A DNA stretch of 64,000 nt from Dryomyza anilis. Taxonomy: Eukaryota; Arthropoda; Insecta; Diptera; Dryomyzidae. Location: positions 106,611,737-106,675,736 of the forward strand of contig OX638132.1 of NCBI GenBank assembly GCA_951804985.1, written 5' to 3'. The first letter of the stretch is position 1; each line of letters starts with the position of its first letter. Below the pieces are notes generated by a model, which saw only the letters and a program-made list of their open reading frames with translations, was not told the origin of the DNA and made no database searches. The translations under genes and the position numbers were made by a program. This document shows positions 16,221-59,717 of this stretch, in pieces.

Positions 16221-19200
16221 TTTATTCTAAATGGAGTGTCCTAGAGGGTCGAAAGTAGGGTAATTTTGTTGGTTTTCAAATCCAAATTTTTGATTTGACT
16301 AATTTTATAGCTATTGATGGCCAAATTATTCACTGCAAATTTCATATAATTCGATCAGTAGATTCCGGAGTAATCAGGTTTTGAATTCGAGATTTCTTTA
16401 TTTGGACATAACTCCTAAACGGCGCGTCCTAGAGGGTCGAAAGTAGGCTAATTTTATAGGTATTGATGGTCTAATTATTCACTGCAAATTTCATATAATT
16501 CGATCAGTCGGTTCTGAAGAAATCAGGTTTTGACTTCTAGATTTCTTTAATTGGCTATAACTCCTAAACGGAGCGTCCTAGAGGGTCGAATGTAGGCTAA
16601 TTTTATAGGTATTTATGGCCAAATTATTCACTGCAAATTTCATATAATTCGATCAGTCGGTTCTGAAGAAATCAGGTTTTGACTTCTAGATTTCTTTAAT
16701 TGGCTATAACTCCTAAACGGAGCGTCCTAGAGGGTCGAAAGTAGGCTAATGTTGTTGGTATTCAAATCCAAATTTTTAAATTTCTTTTATTGGCTATAAC
16801 TAAACGGAGCGTACTAGAGGGTCGAATGAAGGCTAATTTTATAGCTATTGATGGCCAAATTATTCACTGCAAATTTCATATAATTAGATCAGTAGATTCC
16901 GGAGTAATCAGGTTTTGAATTCGAGATTTCTTTATTTGGCCATAACTCCTAAACGGCGCGTCCTAGAGGGTCGAAAGTAGGCTAATTTTATAGGTATTGA
17001 TGGTCTAATTATTCACTGCAAATTTCATATAATTCGATCAGTCGGTTCTGAAGAAATCAGGTTTTGACTTCTAGATTTCTTTATTTGGCTAATTTTATAG
17101 GTATTGATGGCCAAATTATTCACTGAAAATTTCATATAATTCGATCAGAACCGACTTCTGAAGAAATCAGGTTTTGACTTCTAGATTTCTTTATTTGGCT
17201 ATAACTCCTAAACGGAGCGTCCTAGAGGGTCGAAAGTAGGCTAATGTTGTTGGTATTCAATCCAAATTTTTAAATTTCTTTAATTGGCTATAACTCCTAA
17301 ACGGAGCGTCCTAGAGGGTCGAAAGTAGGCTAATTTTATAGGTATTGACGGCCTAATTATTCACTGCAAATTTCATATAATTCGATCAGTCGGTTCTGAA
17401 TAAATCATGTTTTGACTTCTAGATTTCTTTAATTGGCTATAACTCCTAAACGGAGTGTCCTAGAGGGTCGAAAGTAGGGTAATTTTGTTGGTTTTCAAAT
17501 CCAAATTTTTGAATTTCTTTTATTGGCTATAACTAAACGGAGCGTACTAGAGGGTCGAATGAAGCCTAATTTTATAGCTATTGATGGCCAAATTATTCAC
17601 TGCAAATTTCATATAATTCGATCGGTAGATTCCGGAGTAATCAGGTTTTGAATTCGAGATTTCTTTATTTGGCCATAACTCCTAAACGGAGCGTCCTAGA
17701 GGGTCGAAAGTAGACTAATTTTATAGGTATTGATGGCCTAATTATTCACTGCAAATTTCATATAATTCGATCAGTCGGTTCTGAAGAAATCAGGTTTTGA
17801 CTTCTAGATTTCTTTAATTGGCTATAACTCCTAAACGGAGCGTCCTAGAGGGTCGAATGTAGGCTAATTTTATAGGTATTTATGGCCAAATTATTCACTG
17901 CAAATTTTATATAATTCGATCAGTCGGTACTGAAGAAATCAGGTTTTGACTTCTAGATTTCTTTAATTGGCTATAACTTCTAAACGGAGCGTCCTAGAGG
18001 GTCGAAAGTAGGCTAATGTTGTTGGCATTCAAATCCAAATTTTTAAATTTCTTTAATTGGCTATAACTCCTAAACGGAGCGTCCTAGAGGTCGAAAGTAG
18101 GCTAATTTTATACGTATTTATGGCCAAATTATTCACTGCAAATTTCATATAATTCGATCAGTCGACCGACTTCTGAAGAAATCAGGTTTTGACTTCTAGA
18201 TTTCTTTATTTGGCTATAACTCCTAAACGGAGCGTCCTAGAGGGTCGAAAGTAGGCTAATGTTGTTGGTATTCAATCCAAATTTTTAAATTTCTTTAATT
18301 GGCTATAACTCCTAAACGGAGCGTCCTAGAGGGTCGAAAGTAGGTTCAATTTGTTGGTATTCAAATCCAAATTTTTGAATTTCTTTTATTGGCTAAACTA
18401 AACGGAGCGTCCTAGAGGGTCGAATGTAGGCTAATTATATAGGTATTTATGGCCAAATTATTCACTGCAAATTTCATATAATTCGATCAGTCGATTCCGG
18501 AGTAATCAGGTTTTGAATTCTAGAATTCTTTATTTGGCTATAACTCCTAAACGGAGCGTCCTAGAGGGTCGAAAGTAGGCTAATTTTATAGGTATTGACG
18601 GCCTAATTATTCACTGCAAATTTCATATAATTCGATCAGTCGGTTCTGAATAAATCATGTTTTGACTTCTAGATTTCTTTAATTGGCTATAACTCCTAAA
18701 CGGAGTGTCCTAGAGGGTCGAAAGTAGGGTAATTTTGTTGGTTTTCAAATCCAAATTTTTGAATTTCTTTTATTGGCTATAACTAAACGGAGCGTACTAG
18801 AGGGTCGAATGAAGGCTAATTTTATAGCTATTGATGGCCAAATTATTCACTGCAAATTTCATATAATTCGATCGGTAGATTCCGGAGTAATCAGGTTTTG
18901 AATTCGAGATTTCTTTATTTGGCCATAACTCCTAAACGGAGCGTCCTAGAGGGTCGAAAGTAGACTAATTTTATAGGTATTGATGGCCTAATTATTCACT
19001 GCAAATTTCATATAATTCGATCAGTCGGTTCTGAAGAAATCAGGTTTTGACTTCTAGATTTCTTTAATTGGCTATAACTCCTAAACGGAGCGTCCTAGAG
19101 GGTCGAATGTAGGCTAATTTTATAGGTATTTATGGCCAAATTATTCACTGCAAATTTCATATAATTCGATCAGTCGGTTCTGAAGAAATCAGGTTTTGAC

Positions 19201-21885
19201 TTCTAGATTTCTTTAATTGGCTATAACTCCTAAACGGAGCGTCCTAGAGGGTCGAAAGTAGGCTAATGTTGTTGGTATTCAAATCCAAATTTTTAAATTT
19301 CTTTTATTGGCTATAACTAAACGGAGCGTACTAGAGGGTCGAATGAAGGCTAATTTTATAGCTATTGATGGCCAAATTATTCACTGCAAATTTCATATAA
19401 TTCGATCAGTAGATTCCGGAGTAATCAGGTTTTGAATTCGAGATTTCTTTATTTGGCCATAACTCCTAAACGGCGCGTCCTAGAGGGTCGAAAGTAGGCT
19501 AATTTTATAGGTATTGATGGTCTAATTATTCACTGCAAATTTCATATAATTCGATCAGTCGGTTCTGAAGAAATCAGGTTTTGACTTCTAGATTTCTTTA
19601 TTTGGCTAATTTTATAGGTATTGATGGCCAAATTATTCACTGAAAATTTCATATAATTCGATCAGAACCGACTTCTGAAGAAATCAGGTTTTGACTTCTA
19701 GATTTCTTTATTTGGCTATAACTCCTAAACGGAGCGTCCTAGAGGGTCGAAAGTAGGCTAATGTTGGTATTCAATCCAAATTTTTAAATTTCTTTAATTG
19801 GCTATAACTCCTAAACGGAGCGTCCTAGAGGGTCGAAAGTAGGCTAATTTTATAGGTATTGACGGCCTAATTATTCACTGCAAATTTCATATAATTCGAT
19901 CAGTCGGTTCTGAATAAATCATGTTTTGACTTCTAGATTTCTTTAATTGGCTATAACTCCTAAACGGAGTGTCCTAGAGGGTCGAAAGTAGGGTAATTTT
20001 GTTGGTTTTCAAATCCAAATTTTTGAATTTCTTTTATTGGCTATAACTAAACGGAGCGTACTAGAGGGTCGAATGAAGCCTAATTTTATAGCTATTGATG
20101 GCCAAATTATTCACTGCAAATTTCATATAATTCGATCGGTAGATTCCGGAGTAATCAGGTTTTGAATTCGAGATTTCTTTATTTGGCCATAACTCCTAAA
20201 CGGAGCGTCCTAGAGGGTCGAAAGTAGACTAATTTTATAGGTATTGATGGCCTAATTATTCACTGCAAATTTCATATAATTCGATCAGTCGGTTCTGAAG
20301 AAATCAGGTTTTGACTTCTAGATTTCTTTAATTGGCTATAACTCCTAAACGGAGCGTCCTAGAGGGTCGAATGTAGGCTAATTTTTTAGGTATTTATGGC
20401 CAAATTATTCACTGCAAATTTTATATAATTCGATCAGTCGGTACTGAAGAAATCAGGTTTTGACTTCTAGATTTCTTTAATTGGCTATAACTCCTAAACG
20501 GAGCGTCCTAGAGGGTCGAAAGTAGGCTAATGTTGTTGGCATTCAAATCCAAATTTTTAAATTTCTTTAATTGGCTATAACTCCTAAACGGAGCGTCCTA
20601 GAGGTCGAAAGTAGGCTAATTTTATACGTATTTATGGCCAAATTATTCACTGCAAATTTCATATAATTCGATCAGTCGATTCTGGAGTAATCAGGTTTTG
20701 AATTCGAGATTTCTTTATTTGGGTATAACTCCGAAACGGAGCGTCCTAGAGGGTCGAAAGTAGGCTTATTTTATAGGTATTGATGGCCTAATTATTCACT
20801 GCAAATTTCATATAATTCGATCAGTCGGTTCTGAAGAAATCAGGTTTTGACTTCTAGATTTCTTTAATTGGCTATAACTCCTAAACGGAGCGTCCTAGAG
20901 GGTCGAAAGTAGGCTAATTTTGTTGGTATTCAAATCCAAATTTTTTAATTTCTTTAATTGGCTATAACTCCTAAACGGAGCGTCCTAGTGGGTAGGCTAA
21001 TTTTATAGCTATTGATGGCCAAATTATTCACTGCACATTTCATAGAATTCGATCAGTCGGTTCTGGAGTAATCAGATTTTGAATTCTAGATTTCTTTAAT
21101 TGGATATAACTCCTAAACGGAGCGTCCTAGAGGGTCGAATGTATGGTAATTTTGTTGGTTTTCAAATCCAAATTTTTGAATTTCTTTTATTGGCTATAAC
21201 TAAACGGAGCGTACTAGAGGGTCGAAAGTATGGTAATTTTGTTGGTTTTTAAATCCAAATTTTTGAATTTCTTTTATTGGCTATAACTAAACGGAGCGTA
21301 CTAGAGGGTCGAAAGTAGGCTAATTTTATAGCTATTGATGGCCAAATTATTCACTGCAAATTTCATATAATTCGATCAGTCGGTTCTGGAGTAATCAGGT
21401 TTTGAATTCTAGATTTCTTTATTTGGCTATAACTCCTAAACAGAGCGTCCTAGAGGGTCGAAAGTGGGCTAATTTTGTTGGTATTCAAATCCCAATTTTT
21501 GAATTTCTTGAATTGGCTATAACTCCTAAACGGAGCGTCCTAGAGGGTCGAAAGAAGTCTAATTTTATAGGTATTGATGGCCAAATTATTCACTGCAAAT
21601 TTCATATAATTCGATCAGTCGGTTCTGGAGTAATCAGGTTTTGAATTCTAGATTTCTTTATTTGGCTATAACTCCTAAACGGAGCGTCCTAGAGGGTCGA
21701 AAGAAGTCTAATTTTATAGGTATTGATGGCCAAATTATTCACTGCAAATTTCATATAATTCGATCAGTCGATTCTGGAGTAATCAGGTTTTGAATTCTAG
21801 ATTTCTTTATTTGGCTATAACTCCTAAACGGAGCGTCCTAGAGGGTCGAAAGAAGTCTAATTTTATAGGTATTGAATTTTATAGC
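16221..21885 (+). repeat. Two-monomer satellite array with higher-order repeats
   Basis: About 40 units share CTAAACGGAGCGTCCTAGAG followed by GGTCGAAAGTAGGCTAAT. The spacing alternates between about 148 bp (a long monomer with ATTATTCACTGCAAATTTCA and an ATTCGATCAGTCGGTTCTG-type segment) and about 88 bp (a short monomer with TTGTTGGTATTCAAATCC). Higher-order structure is visible: the block starting GGTATTGACGGCCTAATT recurs at 17341, 18591 and 19855, giving a unit of 1250-1264 bp. No coding function. Short open frames (for example 21402-21644) come from the repeat. Confidence 0.9.
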
Positions 21886-29019: not shown

Positions 29020-29024
29020 TAAAT

Positions 29025-29196
29025 TTTTATTTAAACTCACTTTTTATATAAAAAGAACGAATGTGTTTATTTCAATATGTGAAATTCGATTAAGTGAAAA
29101 ATATTGACATAACAATCAAATACAAATTTCATTGATTGTTATGTTAAAAGTAAAATATATATAACAAGTTATAAAACCAAAAGTACATTTTTAACA
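29025..29196 (-). repeat. 3' LTR of the Copia-class element
   Basis: 172 bp, matching 32031-32202 except at the second base (29026 T, 32032 A). Its minus-strand start is TGTTAAAAATG. It abuts the polypurine tract at 29197-29205. Confidence 0.92.
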
Positions 29197-29205
29197 CCCC
29201 CTCTC
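29197..29205 (-). other. Polypurine tract
   Basis: GAGAGGGGG on the minus strand, immediately upstream of the 3' LTR; the expected primer site for plus-strand cDNA synthesis. Confidence 0.85.
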
Positions 29206-29227
29206 AATTATAAAATTCAAAGAATTT

Positions 29228-32026
29228 CTAATTGTTCTTAAACTTGTTATTTCTAATGATTTTGTAAATATTCCTTGCTTTGTTGGAACTTCCGTGTGTT
29301 TGAAGTTTTGGCGACGGAGGCGGCCCTCGATCTACCAGCGTATATCGAGGTGGTCCATCATCAATTCTTTTCGTCTTTTCACTGCGACAAGAGATGTCTT
29401 TGCTCTTTGTCTTCATATCACTGAGGACCTGTTGCACTTGACTGTTCTTCTCTTCCGCCAGTGTCAAATGCTCGCCGCTGTTATAGGCTGGCGCTGCACT
29501 GTCTTGTTCCTTTTCGAATAGATTTCCCGCATTAAAAGTGTAGTCATCACTTTCGATTGGATTATCACGGTCGATTTCAAAAGTTTTTCCTCTGTTTCCT
29601 TTTGCTCTTATTCCACCACATGAGGTATGTTTTGAAATGACTGACTCTGTAGTGTGCTCATCATCTGTGTGTTCATCGTCTGATGTTGATGCTTCCTCAT
29701 CTGTGTCATCATGTGCCTCACTGGACGTTGCACTCTTTTTGTACAGCAACGCCAAAATATTTTTAATTGTTTCTTGCATTTCGTCCGACACTTTGTACGT
29801 CATCGAGTCCATGGCGTTTCTGATGTTGTTCGCTGCCTTTGTGAAAACATTGCACATTGCATGTTCTGCATTATTCGCTGCATCTTTTTCCCTGTTGACC
29901 ATGGCGCCCATTGCATCAACTGCATCTGTAGAGGCCTTTTTTGCTTGTACACCCACTGCATGCCCGGAACCGGCTGCCACACGCATGGCATTTACACTCA
30001 TGGCATCTACTGCGTCACGAACTCCTGTAGCCATCTTCTTGGCATTTTCTCCAGCAGCCTCAACTGCGCCACGTGCGCCTGTTGCCACACTATTCGCCAA
30101 ATTCTCGATTGGTTTCTTGTACAACGGCATGCCTTCCTCCATAACACACTTGGTCAGCTCGTGCTTTATCACCTCATCCGGCTCTGATGAAATAACCAAA
30201 TCACGATCATCCAGCGTTTGGATCACTCGCTGAAAATCGCACAAAGCCTCGATCAACTGCACCGGAATCTTCATCTTTAAATCGGGACCCACATGTACAT
30301 GCGACACATGTTCCTTCTCGTCCAACAATATAATAATATCGCCCGGTTGTGATTCAGGCTCATGATCACATTCGCCCGTGAATATAATCGTCTGTCCGCC
30401 ACGCTTGTGCACCTCGAGTAATTTACGTATGCGCACTGTCTTGCGACCGCTGCATTGCTTGCAACCAGTCTTCTCCGAAATCATCTCACAACTGCCCATA
30501 CATTTGCGACACACCTGTCCGATCTGCTGCACGACGCCGGGACCAATGTTCTGAACGCGTCTCTCGTCATCATTACCGCGACACTGCATACATTTCTCGA
30601 TGGCGCCCTTCTTGCCGCCACGTCCCTCGACGGTATCTTGCTCTGAAGGTCCCACGACGATATCTGGTGCCACGACTATATCGTTCGAAATGTCATTATC
30701 TTCATCCCCCTCTTGATCGTTTCGGTGTATGGTTTTGATTTTCGTCTCTTCCTGCACATCATCATTGTGTCCGATTCTCGTGTTCCACAAGGCGCCTTCT
30801 TTTGATGTAGTTAAGTTGGCTACAGAATAGATTGCTCGCATTTTAATCTCGAATAAATTTCCACTGCGCCTTGCAGTTGCAATAACTTGGCCATCTTTCT
30901 CCAACGTTGCATTGATTTTCTTGAACTGCACGTTGATACCAGCCTGCACCATCTTGCTAACTGAAAGCAGGTTTTCACGAAGTTGTGAGCTGTATAAGAC
31001 ATTCTTTAATAGCAATTCGGTTCCAGTATCGCTTAATCCACGGATCTCTCCAACTGCAGATACTTCAATACTCGCATCTGCTTTTGCTACGTTGATATAA
31101 CGCGGACTTGACAAATATTGCAGTTTGTAAAACAATTTATCATCATTTACAAAATGATCCGTCGCTCCAGAATCCAATGCAAACGCAACTTCATTTTTCG
31201 TTGCAATTGATTTTTTCTGATTGCCATTGTCAGCCATGAAACTTACAGCAGGTTTACTTTCTGCCGAATACCTAGCATCCTTAGACCGACAATCCTTCTT
31301 CATGTGCCCATATTTTCCGCACTTATGGCAGTTTCCATTGAAGCGATTGTTTGGGACTGAGTGTGTATTGTTGAACCGATCTCCATTTCGCTGCGTTGTA
31401 AAAGCAGTAACCTTTTCTACAGCTTCTTCTACATAACGGTTCTTCTTTTTGGACTCCTCTGCTAAGAGGCGTGGTTTCACCGCTGCCAATGTTAATTCCT
31501 CTTCATTCATATTTTCCAAAGCGGTCACTACTGCATCATATGATTCAGGCAGGGTCAAAAAGAGCTGCGACACTAAATCAGCCTCTTCTGGTTTTGCACC
31601 CGCCGTCTTTAGCTGCCGTATTAGAGAATCGAATTTAAGTAGATGTGCACTTAAATCTTCTCCATCTCTCAGTCGAAGATTTGCCAGCTCTTTTCGCACA
31701 ATTGTTTGGCATTGTGGTGATTTACGTGCGAATGTAGCGACCAATGCATTCCACATCTCTTTTGCGGTTGATTTGTCCCTTATGTATTCCAGGTAATCAT
31801 CGTGGACTAAGCTGGTTATGATGTCCTGCGCCTTCGCATCTTTCCTTTGAAAATCGTCCGGTACCGTCGTAGACACGCTGCTTCCTGATGCTGTTCCTGG
31901 AGCTGACTGCTTTACAGCTTCCAGGCAACCCGCTGAAGCCAGATGCTTCTCCACACGAAATTTCCAATTTTCAAAGTTTGCTCCTGCAAACTGTGCAATT
32001 CCCGAAGATTTTTCGTTGGTGCCCAT
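29228..32026 (-). CDS. Gag-protease fused to DnaJA-type chaperone core
   Basis: A 932-aa frame of mixed origin. Residues 1-421 are a Copia-class gag and protease: a GANFENWKFRVEKHL start, a gag helical region, a zinc knuckle CHKCGKYGHMKKDC at 233-246, the protease motif DSGATDHF at 285-292, and the start of the pre-integrase motif LWNTRIGHN at about 413-421. There the retroviral-type homology stops. Residues 422-466 are an acidic linker. Residues 467-641 resemble the cysteine-rich and first C-terminal domains of a type-I DnaJ (DNAJA1/Droj2 type), with CMQC, CRKC and CKQCSGRK repeats and GDHEPESQPGDIIILLDEKE in slightly altered form. The J domain, the first Cys repeat and the distal dimerisation part are absent. 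Residues 642-770 are Ala-rich amphipathic repeats and 771-932 are acidic and polar, both of unknown source. It cannot act as a normal Hsp70 co-chaperone without a J domain; whether it packages RNA or binds clients is unknown. The start codon lies inside the primer-binding site. Confidence 0.88.
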   Translation of the reverse strand: MGTNEKSSGIAQFAGANFENWKFRVEKHLASAGCLEAVKQSAPGTASGSSVSTTVPDDFQRKDAKAQDIITSLVHDDYLEYIRDKSTAKEMWNALVATFARKSPQCQTIVRKELANLRLRDGEDLSAHLLKFDSLIRQLKTAGAKPEEADLVSQLFLTLPESYDAVVTALENMNEEELTLAAVKPRLLAEESKKKNRYVEEAVEKVTAFTTQRNGDRFNNTHSVPNNRFNGNCHKCGKYGHMKKDCRSKDARYSAESKPAVSFMADNGNQKKSIATKNEVAFALDSGATDHFVNDDKLFYKLQYLSSPRYINVAKADASIEVSAVGEIRGLSDTGTELLLKNVLYSSQLRENLLSVSKMVQAGINVQFKKINATLEKDGQVIATARRSGNLFEIKMRAIYSVANLTTSKEGALWNTRIGHNDDVQEETKIKTIHRNDQEGDEDNDISNDIVVAPDIVVGPSEQDTVEGRGGKKGAIEKCMQCRGNDDERRVQNIGPGVVQQIGQVCRKCMGSCEMISEKTGCKQCSGRKTVRIRKLLEVHKRGGQTIIFTGECDHEPESQPGDIIILLDEKEHVSHVHVGPDLKMKIPVQLIEALCDFQRVIQTLDDRDLVISSEPDEVIKHELTKCVMEEGMPLYKKPIENLANSVATGARGAVEAAGENAKKMATGVRDAVDAMSVNAMRVAAGSGHAVGVQAKKASTDAVDAMGAMVNREKDAANNAEHAMCNVFTKAANNIRNAMDSMTYKVSDEMQETIKNILALLYKKSATSSEAHDDTDEEASTSDDEHTDDEHTTESVISKHTSCGGIRAKGNRGKTFEIDRDNPIESDDYTFNAGNLFEKEQDSAAPAYNSGEHLTLAEEKNSQVQQVLSDMKTKSKDISCRSEKTKRIDDGPPRYTLVDRGPPPSPKLQTHGSSNKARNIYKIIRNNKFKNN

Positions 32027-32030
32027 AACC
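32019..32030 (-). other. Primer-binding site, initiator-tRNA half type
   Basis: Minus strand GGTTATGGGCAC directly next to the 5' LTR. The first ten bases are complementary to the anticodon-loop region of initiator tRNA-Met, the half-tRNA primer used by Copia. The gag ATG (32026-32024) overlaps it. Confidence 0.8.
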
Positions 32031-32202
32031 TATTATTTAAACTCACTTTTTATATAAAAAGAACGAATGTGTTTATTTCAATATGTGAAATTCGATTAAG
32101 TGAAAAATATTGACATAACAATCAAATACAAATTTCATTGATTGTTATGTTAAAAGTAAAATATATATAACAAGTTATAAAACCAAAAGTACATTTTTAA
32201 CA
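32031..32202 (-). repeat. 5' LTR of the Copia-class element
   Basis: 172 bp, the promoter-bearing LTR for the minus-strand element. It ends 302 bp from the start codon of the + strand Tudor gene and points away from it. Confidence 0.92.
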
Positions 32203-32504
32203 TAAATTAATCGTAAATAATGTGAAAAATAAATCCGAAGTTGCACAAATTTTTTCCATATCAGTTTTTTTTCACAATTCCGCGGTACTTCTAACGCTTC
32301 CTTGTCTACTTTTAGAAATGCAACACTGTTGAAATTTATTTTCTGAGTACGAACTTTGGCAACTCTGCTTAATTTCGTTGTTTGCTGAATATATTCAAAT
32401 TCCCGTTAGTCCTCTGGTCGAAGCGTCTCAGCATTTTTTTTATTACAATACTTCATTCTTTTGCAGTTTAAATTGCGTTAAATTGGAAATTTGAAGCAAC
32501 TACC

Positions 32505-40896: not shown

Positions 40897-43010
40897 TTAT
40901 TTAAACCCAGATTTCTGCAACTTTTGAATAAGAGCTGACATTTCAACTATTATAATTTGATCGTCGATGGCCTTCACTTTGTCAATTTTGATAATCTTAT
41001 TAACGGGAACATGCTTCTTTAGACAAGCAGCCAGCTGAGCATCTATGTCGGTGGGCAAACCTAAAATAAAAAGGGGTTTTAACATGAATGCAATGCAGCA
41101 GTGAACCACAATCTAATACCATCGATTAGGCACAAATTCGTGGCACAATCAATCTTGAGATCTGTCGGATAGGGGCGTATGTGCTCGCTCGTTATAGTGC
41201 CCTCATTAGTGTAGTCAATGTATACAACCGTATACTCATTAGCATTTGGAATGGATGTGACCCTTGCACGATACCAGTCACCCTCGAACTTTGCAATGCA
41301 ATATTCGTTGATGCTGTGGACGACTTCGATCAGAAAGAACTTCAAACATTGAGACATTTGAATTTACCTGGGTCTATAGGCCTCGCCCGAGTCTTGAAAT
41401 GCCGTCATGTAGTCCTGTAAATTGACCATGGTTTTTACGTCTGTACGCTCAATGCAACCAAAGTACCCCAGTTCCAAGCACGAATTGTCCACCACAAACA
41501 CTTCGACATCCATGACATTTTTTGCTAAAGTTCGCAAAACAAAGGGCTGCAAAGAAAATTGAGAAGCGTTGATAAGACATTTCGTAAAATTGTCACACTT
41601 ACAGCAGTCAAAGTCGGCCCACGAAGATTGACTTGTTTTGCTGAACGTGTAGCTGCTTCCAGCTGTTTGAAGTTGTTCTGCTTGTGGTTGCGGTTTATTT
41701 GAAGCTCATCCTTCAATCCACCGTTGTGATCTATTTCAACACAAGAAGATGGCTTGGCTGCTGCAGGCGGAGTGTCAATGCGACGCGAATCCTTCTCCAC
41801 GAACACGCTCATGTTGGCGGCAAATTGTGCTATTTGCTCATTGAGGCATTCTTCGCTCTGCCAGTGGGACAGCATTACGGCACCGCCGCGCTCATCGCTA
41901 TTGCAATATTGTATCTTAAACTCCATGTCTTCGAACTGAGATAGAAAATTGGTGAGTTGTTCGTTGAGTTCGTAGTTCTCAACGTTTTTCAATTGCAGCT
42001 GAACCGTGTGCTGCTGTAGACCGACTACATGATCAGAAATTTCGCGCAAGTCGGACAACTGTCGCACCGCCGTGGTGCCATAGTCGCAGAAGAGCACGCG
42101 AATATTCTTAGCATTCCGGACAGCGAGAACTTGCACGCGGTACATGATGCCAATTTGGTCCATGTGGCTGATGGCGTAAGAGTTGGCCACCGGAAGTTTA
42201 TTTAGAGGTGCGGCGACCTTGCCGTAGGCGTCGACCGCCTTGGCCACTTGCATGAACCGCTCGTTCTCGCTCTGTACAAGTGAACGCACATAGCAACGAT
42301 TCGGAGTGCGAAAGCCAGTCAACAGCACGCGGCTATGTTGCTTTGGCATCGGTGATGTGGGCATTTGGACTTGTTGGACCTGTGGACGGTGGCGAATCGC
42401 ATGCTGCTCCGGACCGGTTACGACATTTGCTTCAGATTTATCTTTCGACTCTGGCAATGACTGTTTCTGCTGCGTTTGTATTTTAGGCATTTGTCTAGTC
42501 TGCTGTACTGCATGCGTGGTTATCATGCTCGATGCTGCTGTGAGCACTGGAAGCACTACATCATTTTGCGTACACGCTCTGACCAGAGGCCTACAAAGTC
42601 GATATTGGTTTAATTAAATTATTAAAAAGTTTTACTATATTTACGGCATTGCAAAGCAAATGTAACGATGACATGGCCAATCCTTGCGTTGGCAATCTGG
42701 CGAGCAATAATAATCACCGCAACGCTGGCAAACACAGACAGACGTCTTCTTGCACAGAACACAGGACGCTGTCTTCACGGATTTGCCTGCAGCAACAGAT
42801 TCATTGGAGGGCTAAATAGAAGGGAGGGCATTACAAGGCATCGATCCTGCTGTATACTCAATTACCTGATGCACTGTGGATTCACAAATATTATCCGAGT
42901 TGCGGCTCACATCACATGTATTGTATAGTTTGATCGGGCGACTGTTTTAATAGACACAAAATCAATAAAAATTAGGATAATGTCTAAGTACGTTACCTTT
43001 TCAACATCAT
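40897..43010 (-). CDS. MYND-finger, two-Tudor protein (TDRD1-like paralogue)
   Basis: Seven exons, in transcription order 43010-42997, 42941-42866, 42811-42645, 42590-41603, 41546-41368, 41313-41120, 41060-40897. Introns are 54-59 bp and phases agree throughout, giving 593 aa. An apparent in-frame stop at about 41363 is removed by the 54-bp intron 41314-41367. MYND finger at 47-82 (CVLC, CVCQRC, CSPDC, HRYIC). Tudor 1 core about 223-265 (IGIMYRVQVLAVR, LFCDYGTT); Tudor 2 about 476-525 (NEYCIAKFEGDWYRARV, VYIDYTNEG). Between them is a Gln-rich stretch (about 108-150) and a Lys/Asn-rich linker. The likely role is as an adaptor for dimethyl-arginine Piwi proteins in the piRNA pathway. Convergent with the larger paralogue and sharing its exon-end layout (GLP at a phase-1 intron), which suggests an old inverted duplication. 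Confidence 0.93.
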
Positions 43011-55000: not shown

Positions 55001-58000
55001 TTATTCTAAAAATGAGGCACTTAATAGAAGAGTTTCTAATCTGGTGTTTTTTTATTAGATAAAATAAAATTTAGACATTTTAGCAATTTTTTGAGAAAAT
55101 TTATTTTATATTTTTGGCCTTTGGGTAATGGCAACACTGCTGCCAACTTCTTTTTCATAGAAAACACTTATGCTACGCTTCCTTTCGGCATATATTATAT
55201 TATATTATATTATATTATATTATATTATATTATATTATATTATATTATATTATATTATATTATATTATATTATATTATATTATATTATATTATATTATAT
55301 TATATTATATTATATTATATTATATTATATTATATTATATTATATTATATTATATTATATTATATTATATTATATTATATTATATTATATTATATTATAT
55401 TATATTATATTATATTATATTATATTATATTATATTATATTATATTATATTATATTATATTATATTATATTATATTATATTATATTATATTATATTATAT
55501 TATATTATATTATATTATATTATATTATATTATATTATATTATATTATATTATATTATATTATATTATATTATATTATATTATATTATATTATATTATAT
55601 TATATTATATTATATTATATTATATTATATTATATTATATTATATTATATTATATTATATTATATTATATTATATTATATTATATTATATTATATTATAT
55701 TATATTATATTATATTATATTATATTATATTATATTATATTATATTATATTATATTATATTATATTATATTATATTATATTATATTATATTATATTATAT
55801 TATATTATATTATATTATATTATATTATATTATATTATATTATATTATATTATATTATATTATATTATATTATATTATATTATATTATATTATATTATAT
55901 TATATTATATTATATTATATTATATTATATTATATTATATTATATTATATTATATTATATTATATTATATTATATTATATTATATTATATTATATTATAT
56001 TATATTATATTATATTATATTATATTATATTATATTATATTATATTATATTATATTATATTATATTATATTATATTATATTATATTATATTATATTATAT
56101 TATATTATATTATATTATATTATATTATATTATATTATATTATATTATATTATATTATATTATATTATATTATATTATATTATATTATATTATATTATAT
56201 TATATTATATTATATTATATTATATTATATTATATTATATTATATTATATTATATTATATTATATTATATTATATTATATTATATTATATTATATTATAT
56301 TATATTATATTATATTATATTATATTATATTATATTATATTATATTATATTATATTATATTATATTATATTATATTATATTATATTATATTATATTATAT
56401 TATATTATATTATATTATATTATATTATATTATATTATATTATATTATATTATATTATATTATATTATATTATATTATATTATATTATATTATATTATAT
56501 TATATTATATTATATTATATTATATTATATTATATTATATTATATTATATTATATTATATTATATTATATTATATTATATTATATTATATTATATTATAT
56601 TATATTATATTATATTATATTATATTATATTATATTATATTATATTATATTATATTATATTATATTATATTATATTATATTATATTATATTATATTATAT
56701 TATATTATATTATATTATATTATATTATATTATATTATATTATATTATATTATATTATATTATATTATATTATATTATATTATATTATATTATATTATAT
56801 TATATTATATTATATTATATTATATTATATTATATTATATTATATTATATTATATTATATTATATTATATTATATTATATTATATTATATTATATTATAT
56901 TATATTATATTATATTATATTATATTATATTATATTATATTATATTATATTATATTATATTATATTATATTATATTATATTATATTATATTATATTATAT
57001 TATATTATATTATATTATATTATATTATATTATATTATATTATATTATATTATATTATATTATATTATATTATATTATATTATATTATATTATATTATAT
57101 TATATTATATTATATTATATTATATTATATTATATTATATTATATTATATTATATTATATTATATTATATTATATTATATTATATTATATTATATTATAT
57201 TATATTATATTATATTATATTATATTATATTATATTATATTATATTATATTATATTATATTATATTATATTATATTATATTATATTATATTATATTATAT
57301 TATATTATATTATATTATATTATATTATATTATATTATATTATATTATATTATATTATATTATATTATATTATATTATATTATATTATATTATATTATAT
57401 TATATTATATTATATTATATTATATTATATTATATTATATTATATTATATTATATTATATTATATTATATTATATTATATTATATTATATTATATTATAT
57501 TATATTATATTATATTATATTATATTATATTATATTATATTATATTATATTATATTATATTATATTATATTATATTATATTATATTATATTATATTATAT
57601 TATATTATATTATATTATATTATATTATATTATATTATATTATATTATATTATATTATATTATATTATATTATATTATATTATATTATATTATATTATAT
57701 TATATTATATTATATTATATTATATTATATTATATTATATTATATTATATTATATTATATTATATTATATTATATTATATTATATTATATTATATTATAT
57801 TATATTATATTATATTATATTATATTATATTATATTATATTATATTATATTATATTATATTATATTATATTATATTATATTATATTATATTATATTATAT
57901 TATATTATATTATATTATATTATATTATATTATATTATATTATATTATATTATATTATATTATATTATATTATATTATATTATATTATATTATATTATAT

Positions 58001-59667
58001 TATATTATATTATATTATATTATATTATATTATATTATATTATATTATATTATATTATATTATATTATATTATATTATATTATATTATATTATATTATAT
58101 TATATTATATTATATTATATTATATTATATTATATTATATTATATTATATTATATTATATTATATTATATTATATTATATTATATTATATTATATTATAT
58201 TATATTATATTATATTATATTATATTATATTATATTATATTATATTATATTATATTATATTATATTATATTATATTATATTATATTATATTATATTATAT
58301 TATATTATATTATATTATATTATATTATATTATATTATATTATATTATATTATATTATATTATATTATATTATATTATATTATATTATATTATATTATAT
58401 TATATTATATTATATTATATTATATTATATTATATTATATTATATTATATTATATTATATTATATTATATTATATTATATTATATTATATTATATTATAT
58501 TATATTATATTATATTATATTATATTATATTATATTATATTATATTATATTATATTATATTATATTATATTATATTATATTATATTATATTATATTATAT
58601 TATATTATATTATATTATATTATATTATATTATATTATATTATATTATATTATATTATATTATATTATATTATATTATATTATATTATATTATATTATAT
58701 TATATTATATTATATTATATTATATTATATTATATTATATTATATTATATTATATTATATTATATTATATTATATTATATTATATTATATTATATTATAT
58801 TATATTATATTATATTATATTATATTATATTATATTATATTATATTATATTATATTATATTATATTATATTATATTATATTATATTATATTATATTATAT
58901 TATATTATATTATATTATATTATATTATATTATATTATATTATATTATATTATATTATATTATATTATATTATATTATATTATATTATATTATATTATAT
59001 TATATTATATTATATTATATTATATTATATTATATTATATTATATTATATTATATTATATTATATTATATTATATTATATTATATTATATTATATTATAT
59101 TATATTATATTATATTATATTATATTATATTATATTATATTATATTATATTATATTATATTATATTATATTATATTATATTATATTATATTATATTATAT
59201 TATATTATATTATATTATATTATATTATATTATATTATATTATATTATATTATATTATATTATATTATATTATATTATATTATATTATATTATATTATAT
59301 TATATTATATTATATTATATTATATTATATTATATTATATTATATTATATTATATTATATTATATTATATTATATTATATTATATTATATTATATTATAT
59401 TATATTATATTATATTATATTATATTATATTATATTATATTATATTATATTATATTATATTATATTATATTATATTATATTATATTATATTATATTATAT
59501 TATATTATATTATATTATATTATATTATATTATATTATATTATATTATATTATATTATATTATATTATATTATATTATATTATATTATATTATATTATAT
59601 TATATTATATTATATTATATTATATTATATTATATTATATTATATTATATTATATTATATTATATAT

Positions 59668-59717
<50 letters not shown>

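Follow-up and report, generated by a model that had tools for sequence, protein, structure and literature searches.

A Copia-type retrotransposon lineage of Dryomyza anilis carrying pieces of two host genes in frame behind gag-protease

How did part of a host chaperone gene come to lie inside a retrotransposon, and is it kept there for what it encodes? The locus that raises this question lies in a 64,000-nucleotide stretch of the fly Dryomyza anilis (contig OX638132.1), called the window below. At window positions 29025-32202, on the minus strand, direct inspection of the sequence reveals a retrotransposon with long terminal repeats (LTRs). The original prediction described it as a Copia-class element whose pol region had been replaced by a spliced transcript of a Droj2/DNAJA-type DnaJ chaperone gene. 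Capture of host-gene sequence by a Copia element is borne out by the parents of the cargo, both found in this genome; they are two genes. We hold it highly probable that the window copy belongs to a multi-copy Copia lineage without integrase and reverse transcriptase (RT), bearing two in-frame host pieces, at least one of them from spliced RNA, which were likely acquired by template switching, and that this lineage is moved in trans.

The genome's own contigs (656.6 Mb, 69 contigs) were searched at the DNA level with the cargo as query; piece counts from genome searches are lower bounds. We examined 26 loci, the window copy and 25 further places, each compared with the element; loci are named L009-L035. 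A fused copy is cargo in a Copia context, and the two copies at L013 are counted apart in junction tallies. Element positions (q) equal 32203 minus the window position. All counts and trees come from this one genome.

Two host genes in one reading frame

The window copy contains a single open frame, in which the cargo is arranged as follows.

29228..32026, minus strand: single open frame of 932 codons (gag, protease, linker, DnaJ part, second host gene)
30104..30628, minus strand: Droj2 fragment lacking the J domain, made up of zinc-finger repeats 2-4 and the greater part of the C-terminal client-binding region (Pfam, homology, alignment to the parent)
29359..30101, minus strand: exon A of the second host gene, with Ala-rich repeats (80% identity to its parent, L023, C5:57032160-57032966)
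29286..29358, minus strand: next exon of the second host gene, joined directly to exon A (in the parent, a 63-bp GT...AG intron lies between them)

That gag-protease runs in frame into a Droj2/DNAJA protein was correctly seen: residues 467-641 match DNAJA2 with E=1.6e-41, and the proposed DnaJ homology thus passes its check. The transition was misplaced, as it does not follow directly on the pre-integrase motif; 46 linker codons (residues 421-466) stand between. In Pfam, DnaJ_C is found above the cut-off (7.3e-9) and DnaJ_CXXCXGXG below it (2.4e-6). The Droj2 parent lies at C3:96663503-96664036 (L025), with J domain, zinc finger and C-terminal domain within one 379-codon open stretch, and element positions q1574-2101 are 87% identical to it. 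A protein search of the genome returned at least 24 pieces; Droj2 is the sole other strong DnaJ gene among the matches listed, and the next non-element DnaJ matches are 36% and 30% identical.

The captured piece is incomplete. Pfam finds no J domain in the element, though it does in the Droj2 parent; of the four CXXCXGXG repeats only 2-4 are present, repeat 1 lying upstream of junction 2 (see below), and the final portion of the C-terminal domain is missing. With no J domain, one zinc-finger repeat absent and little constraint, a working chaperone is unlikely. Synonymous divergence (dS) between Droj2 parent and window copy is 0.31 in the DnaJ part, which at the rates we assume for flies would mean an age on the order of ten million years. 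With residues 430-932 as query, a homologue search found a single distant protein, a multi-DnaJ one from a metagenome, and was uninformative; this protein (P0001) has repeated DnaJ C-terminal units and a further domain, PF01129.

Residues ~642-914, with the Ala-rich repeats, come from the second host gene. Its parent, open over 453 codons, matches Apolipoprotein weakly and below the cut-off; q2092-2844 are 80% identical to this parent. In the parent, exon A ends at a GTAAGA donor and the next exon begins 63 bp downstream, after AG. The element passes from exon A straight into this next exon, and the exact absence of the 63-bp intron argues that the second host gene was copied from RNA after splicing. 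All 15 copies that have bases on either side of the splice join keep it unbroken. Taken alone, the match to the next exon has E=0.27, yet it stands at the expected position and reaches the end of the cargo. The second host gene itself (L023/L034, C5 near 57.032 Mb) seems to end in CSIL after the 63-bp intron, which we take to be a CaaX-like tail; the element has no CSIL.

In the proposed mapping of parental introns, the Droj2 parent was found; its captured stretch lies inside one open exon where intron loss is uninformative, and the evidence comes from the second gene. Replacement of pol by a spliced host transcript holds in so far as an intron was lost; two host genes contributed, the loss of integrase was a separate event, and the 3' end of pol is kept. 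Both host parts are in their native frames behind gag-protease and linker, and the pol end alone is out of frame.

The remaining features of the window copy are those of a Copia element.

32203..32207, no strand: target-site duplication (TSD) TAAAT, element 5' side (direct sequence)
29020..29024, no strand: TSD TAAAT, element 3' side (direct sequence)
32031..32202, minus strand: 5' LTR, 172 bp (LTR comparison)
29025..29196, minus strand: 3' LTR, 172 bp, one mismatch to the 5' LTR (LTR comparison)
32021..32030, minus strand: primer-binding-site (PBS)-like GGTTATGGGC, directly 3' of the 5' LTR
29197..29205, minus strand: polypurine tract (PPT) GAGAGGGGG, before the 3' LTR
31436..31945, minus strand: Retrotran_gag_2 domain, residues 28-197 (Pfam E=1.2e-33, above cut-off)
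31289..31330, minus strand: CCHC zinc knuckle, residues 233-246 (Pfam 0.0015, below cut-off)
30938..31180, minus strand: protease region, Pol_BBD residues 283-363, DSG motif at 285 (Pfam 5.4e-14, above cut-off)
30630..30766, minus strand: retained Copia linker between integrase and RT, 46 codons, residues 421-466 (alignment to L030 2295-2441)
29203..29285, minus strand: 3' end of Copia pol, not in the frame of the fusion (alignment to L030)

The direct sequence confirms what had been described of this architecture: coordinates, 172-bp LTRs, TAAAT duplication, PBS-like motif, PPT and a single intact frame. PF14223 and PF22936 pass the Pfam cut-off, with PF00098 just under its own. Residues 9-247 match a protein named in its PDB entry as Copia virus-like particle (VLP) protein (E=4.6e-35), presumably from Drosophila. 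LTRs with a 5-bp TSD, copia-type gag, zinc knuckle and DSG protease are thus all those of Ty1/copia. The integrase-before-RT order is absent from the window copy, where a Pfam search finds neither domain, and present in the relative L030, which has both, integrase first. Because integrase and RT are missing, we class the window copy as a non-autonomous derivative of Ty1/copia.

We take GGTTATGGGC to match initiator tRNA-Met. In all 9 two-ended fused copies, as in L030 and L031, the 5' LTR is followed at once by the first eight bases of this motif; they were not found behind the 5' LTR of L032. At this site L017 and L022 have GGCCCAGC, and the other 11 copies compared have GGCACCA(A/G)CG behind GGTTAT(G/T). 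The former presumably resembles initiator tRNA-Met more closely, as would result from copying of the primer into the element. The LTR mismatch of the window copy is the second-last base of U5 (29026/32032). We rejected it as an age estimate: it is a weak clock because it falls in the U5 tip, where the LTRs of L015 differ too.

A family of copies, its relatives and its junctions

The cargo search returned at least 38 matching pieces of 66-100% identity. Cargo lies in a Copia context at 20 of the 26 examined loci, 16 of which hold both host parts; L016, L021 and L028 have the second part only and L029 the DnaJ part only. The other six are the host parents L025 and L023, the Copia copies L030-L032 and a short match, L033 (71%, 158 bp). 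In L026 the Copia part is reduced to about half of the linker. A search with gag gave at least 47 pieces, including further gag fragments and LTR matches outside the 26-locus set (L035 matches gag only). The family holds old and young members. The fusion gene first proposed is thus real, though not single: it is a multi-copy family whose chaperone fragment is under little selection.

Nine fused copies have both ends: the window copy, L009, L010, L011, L013a, L015, L019, L021 and L022. Eight of them show a perfect 5-bp TSD, L021 being ambiguous. The two LTRs differ by no substitution in L010, L011 and L019 and by one in the window copy, L009, L013a and L021 (0-1 in 7/9), and by three in L022 and in L015, there at one tip and with a gap. 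The near-identical LTR pairs and TSDs across copies support recent mobility of the lineage, as had been predicted for the window copy. From stop to stop, L009 is open over 943 codons, L011 over 932, L013a over 888 and L015 over 847; the frame of L022 is broken in gag and cargo. L010, L018 and L020 have each lost ~50 bp, at different places. L013 holds two cargo copies with private changes in common, which look like the product of a local duplication.

Three full-length Copia copies, L030, L031 and L032, occur in the same genome. L030 has identical LTRs and a TSD, and an open frame of 1344 codons stop to stop with gag, protease, integrase and RT in copia order; its pieces, searched apart, give rve (integrase core), SH3_retrovirus and RVT_2. 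Against L030, q1-1437 is LTR-gag-protease, after which ~840 bp of integrase are missing; q1435-1581 is the integrase-RT linker, and q2918-3178 the pol end, PPT and LTR. RT-RNase H is replaced by the cargo, while the 3' end of pol is kept. The alignments place the junctions as follows.

30766..30768, minus strand: junction 1, the integrase deletion, with ACA common to both sides (alignment to L030)
30622..30629, minus strand: junction 2, linker to Droj2, CGAGGGAC in Droj2 and CGTGGGAC in Copia (alignment)
30102..30111, minus strand: junction 3, Droj2 to second host gene, ATGGAGAA in both parents (alignment)

The parents share 8 bases at junction 3, Copia and Droj2 agree at 7 of 8 at junction 2, and at the exit from the second gene into pol there is a weak match only. 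As far as the available text of PMC5408686 describes it, template switching between element RNA and mRNA leaves microsimilarities at the joints. Of the fused copies with data, 10 of 14 have junction 1 unbroken (805-840 bp stand at this place in the three Copia copies), 10 of 13 junction 2, 13 of 14 junction 3 and 12 of 15 junction 4.

At the integrase joint, L017 and L028 retain an extra 39 bp, suggesting two or more rounds of integrase loss, with the later deletion in frame. This seemingly stepwise loss points to a history of more than one event, and so lends something to the alternative that Droj2 and the second gene were captured in separate rounds. Against it, the four copies with a single host gene (L016, L021, L028 and L029) are all explained by truncation or deletion, and we consider two sequential captures rather unlikely. 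The simplest reading of the common junctions would be one capture, then spread.

Between the window copy and L009, 18 of the 137 linker positions differ (window 30630-30766), compared with 24 of 1770 positions in gag-protease and the DnaJ part (Fisher 7e-11). Divergence so far above that of the flanks argues that copies recombine, as co-packaged RNAs would. The same linker block conflicts with the relationships of the flanking gag and DnaJ parts to L009-L011, a trace of recombination.

Selection on gag-protease, cargo and frame

We estimated the ratio of nonsynonymous to synonymous rates (dN/dS) with purpose-written codon models on IQ-TREE topologies. The gag-protease set comprised 14 copies, including the three Copia copies and leaving L029 out; the DnaJ part was represented by 17 sequences and the second part by 19. 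As young copies we count L009-L016, L019, L021 and L022, of which L012, L014 and L016 are classed by identity, having no LTR pair.

In gag-protease, dN/dS is 0.31 on internal branches (twice the log-likelihood difference, 2dlnL, is 33.6 against 1) and 0.38-0.57 at the tips. Element branches of the DnaJ part give 0.72 (2dlnL 4.9 against 1; 6.4 against 0.5). By class, these are 0.69 for internal branches, 0.70 for old and 0.90 for young tips, none of which alone differs from 1 (2dlnL 2.35 for the internal branches). The second part yields 1.41 on internal branches, 1.2 at old and 1.0 at young tips. Both parents are constrained, Droj2 at 0.02 and the second parent at 0.29. Among single-base variants of the young copies, observed over expected nonsynonymous-to-synonymous ratios (N/S) are 0.45 in gag-protease, 0.84 in the DnaJ part and 1.17 in the second part. 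The contrast in both measures argues that gag-protease is kept by purifying selection and that the cargo sequence drifts.

The reading frame behaves differently from the sequence. Of the indels shared by at least two loci, a hand count over q177-2845 finds 7 of 8 in frame; for indels private to old copies the figure is 10 of 48 (Fisher p=5.5e-4). The seven are +39 and +27 in the linker, -6 and +12 in the DnaJ part, and +27, +15 and -9 in the second part. Only the private indels of old copies serve as control; those of young copies, kept out, are six in frame and six shifted by hand count. The tally also leaves out the -45 and +6 found at L013 only (a single locus), a +6 in L017 that is possibly identical with the latter, a +27 near q1566 in L022/L027, perhaps the linker +27 in another alignment, and, within the linker, a +1/-1 pair that cancels out and the +22 of L020. 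No stop codon occurs among the 81 cargo codon variants common to at least two young loci. An open frame through the body of the cargo would thus have been selected in source copies, a conclusion that these counts support moderately.

Several observations weigh against this picture of a drifting cargo in a selected frame and a trans-mobilised lineage. The DnaJ part evolves slightly below neutrality, so that a weak function is possible. Two frameshifts are shared: L017 and L022 have a -1 at q182, in codon 3 right after the PBS, and L014 and L022 a +1 at q2893, near the cargo end and outside the counted range; with the latter included, 7 of 9 shared indels are in frame (p ~0.002). Private stops and shifts occur in young copies, and not every copy with near-identical LTRs is intact: the second part is frameshifted in L010 and L019, and in L013a a stop lies near the end and 8 bp are missing close to the gag start, a loss that breaks the frame as read from the usual ATG. 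We tried nonsense depletion as a proof of frame selection and rejected it, with 4 stops seen and 4.6 expected in the second part of young copies. Recombination among copies weakens the tree-based estimates, which the decay of old copies also affects. For trans-mobilisation by L030-type elements, the evidence consists of the common LTR, PBS and PPT only.

Could the Droj2 piece, without its J domain and fused to Gag, instead be kept because it functions, as a decoy or as a chaperone of particle assembly? Most shared indels keep the frame, the dN/dS of the DnaJ part lies just under 1, and the zinc-ligand cysteines are kept at 47 of 48 young-copy positions with data. According to the available part of PMC7067378, Droj2 also belongs to a chaperone mix that reconstitutes the loading of small RNAs onto Ago2 in vitro. 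The cysteines do not serve as proof of function: retention says little because too few changes are expected, ~2 at the six codons given the overall density of amino-acid changes, with one seen. In addition, the ratio of 0.72 stands against 0.02 in the parent, N/S in older copies is near neutral (0.93), and the missing parts listed above, from J domain to the last part of the C-terminal domain, tell against it. We judge a selected chaperone function improbable.

Chimeric retrocopies are known in many genomes, and the host genes could likewise have been joined first at the DNA level, or as a processed chimeric pseudogene, with Copia sequences flanking them later. The two-ended copies are however bounded by one Copia element with its TSD in 8 of 9 cases, none of the 26 loci holds both host parts without adjoining Copia (at L026, the half linker), and the bases shared at junctions 2 and 3 are against it as well; such a composite is very unlikely. 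An assembly chimera, lastly, is ruled out for practical purposes, since the same junctions recur at dispersed, independent loci with different TSDs and divergence.

Returning to capture by a Copia element followed by spread, the steps may be pictured as follows. RT would have switched from Copia RNA to the mRNA of the second gene, next to Droj2 mRNA and finally back to Copia RNA, and separate deletions would have removed integrase. Gag-protease would be the element's own product, to which the cargo is attached as a C-terminal tail, and RT and integrase would be borrowed from an autonomous relative inside the particle. The cargo would add no selected chaperone activity, and the frame might tend to stay open because the Gag product, or its packaging, benefits from having a translated tail or a long frame. 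The tail is, on this sequence evidence, probably a drifting passenger that is translated.

Around the element, a gene with a Cys-rich start, MYND-like by eye, and Tudor domains (window 32505 onwards) has its first ATG ~300 bp downstream of the end of the insertion; a second Tudor open reading frame lies at 41525-42556 (minus strand). Window positions 55191-59711 are a 4.5-kb TATAT repeat array (99% matches, ~451 ten-base units), and 16299-21875 a satellite of ~5.6 kb with nested 149-, 87- and 236-bp periods in a higher-order arrangement.

Comparison with known systems

Here, host-gene transduction by an animal LTR retrotransposon is seen as a replicating lineage, not as a single retrocopy. Both parents, the lost intron, microhomologies, an integrase-deletion variant and an autonomous relative all lie within one genome, and the steps from template switch to stable parasite become open to dating and testing. 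The family also offers an internal comparison, in which selection keeps gag-protease and lets the cargo sequence drift. No title or abstract opening on Copia, LTR host-gene capture or Droj2 named a comparable animal family; coverage was incomplete, which leaves absence unproven.

LTR-mediated retroposition in metazoans (Tan et al. 2016, as described in the accessible part of PMC5408686) proceeds by template switching at microsimilarities. The same kind of switching probably acted here; the products described there are retrocopies, whereas ours form a propagating family with two joined host genes.

With Drosophila Copia, the window copy shares its gag and, through L030, the gene order; it differs in having no integrase and RT and in carrying host cargo.

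Acute transforming retroviruses bear gag-oncogene fusions, including the two-gene Gag-Myb-Ets of E26. As in these viruses, pol is lost, host cDNA follows gag in frame, and a helper would be needed. Unlike them, the present family is genomic and multi-copy over a long time, with a cargo that is not under strong selection. One may speculate that it is an endogenous counterpart of a two-oncogene transducing retrovirus, in which the fusion propagated over millions of years, the open frame of the tail (not its sequence) was selected and the translated tail was required for spread; in the boldest form, the J-less Droj2 tail, in the Argonaute-loading chaperone path, would blunt silencing of the element. 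We regard this as a long shot.

Bs1 of maize is a non-autonomous element that has lost its pol functions. In the available parts of PMC13317346 and PMC5408686 it is presented as an LTR retroelement whose single hybrid reading frame joins segments of three host genes. On that description it is the closest known case: here too, several host-gene segments share a hybrid frame inside an LTR element, with exonic host sequence between the LTRs, both parents found and the intron of the second gene absent. Unlike the plant element, the one described here is of Copia type and from an insect, has kept protease and linker, and is present as fusions at 20 loci, in which a conserved gag could be measured against a drifting cargo.

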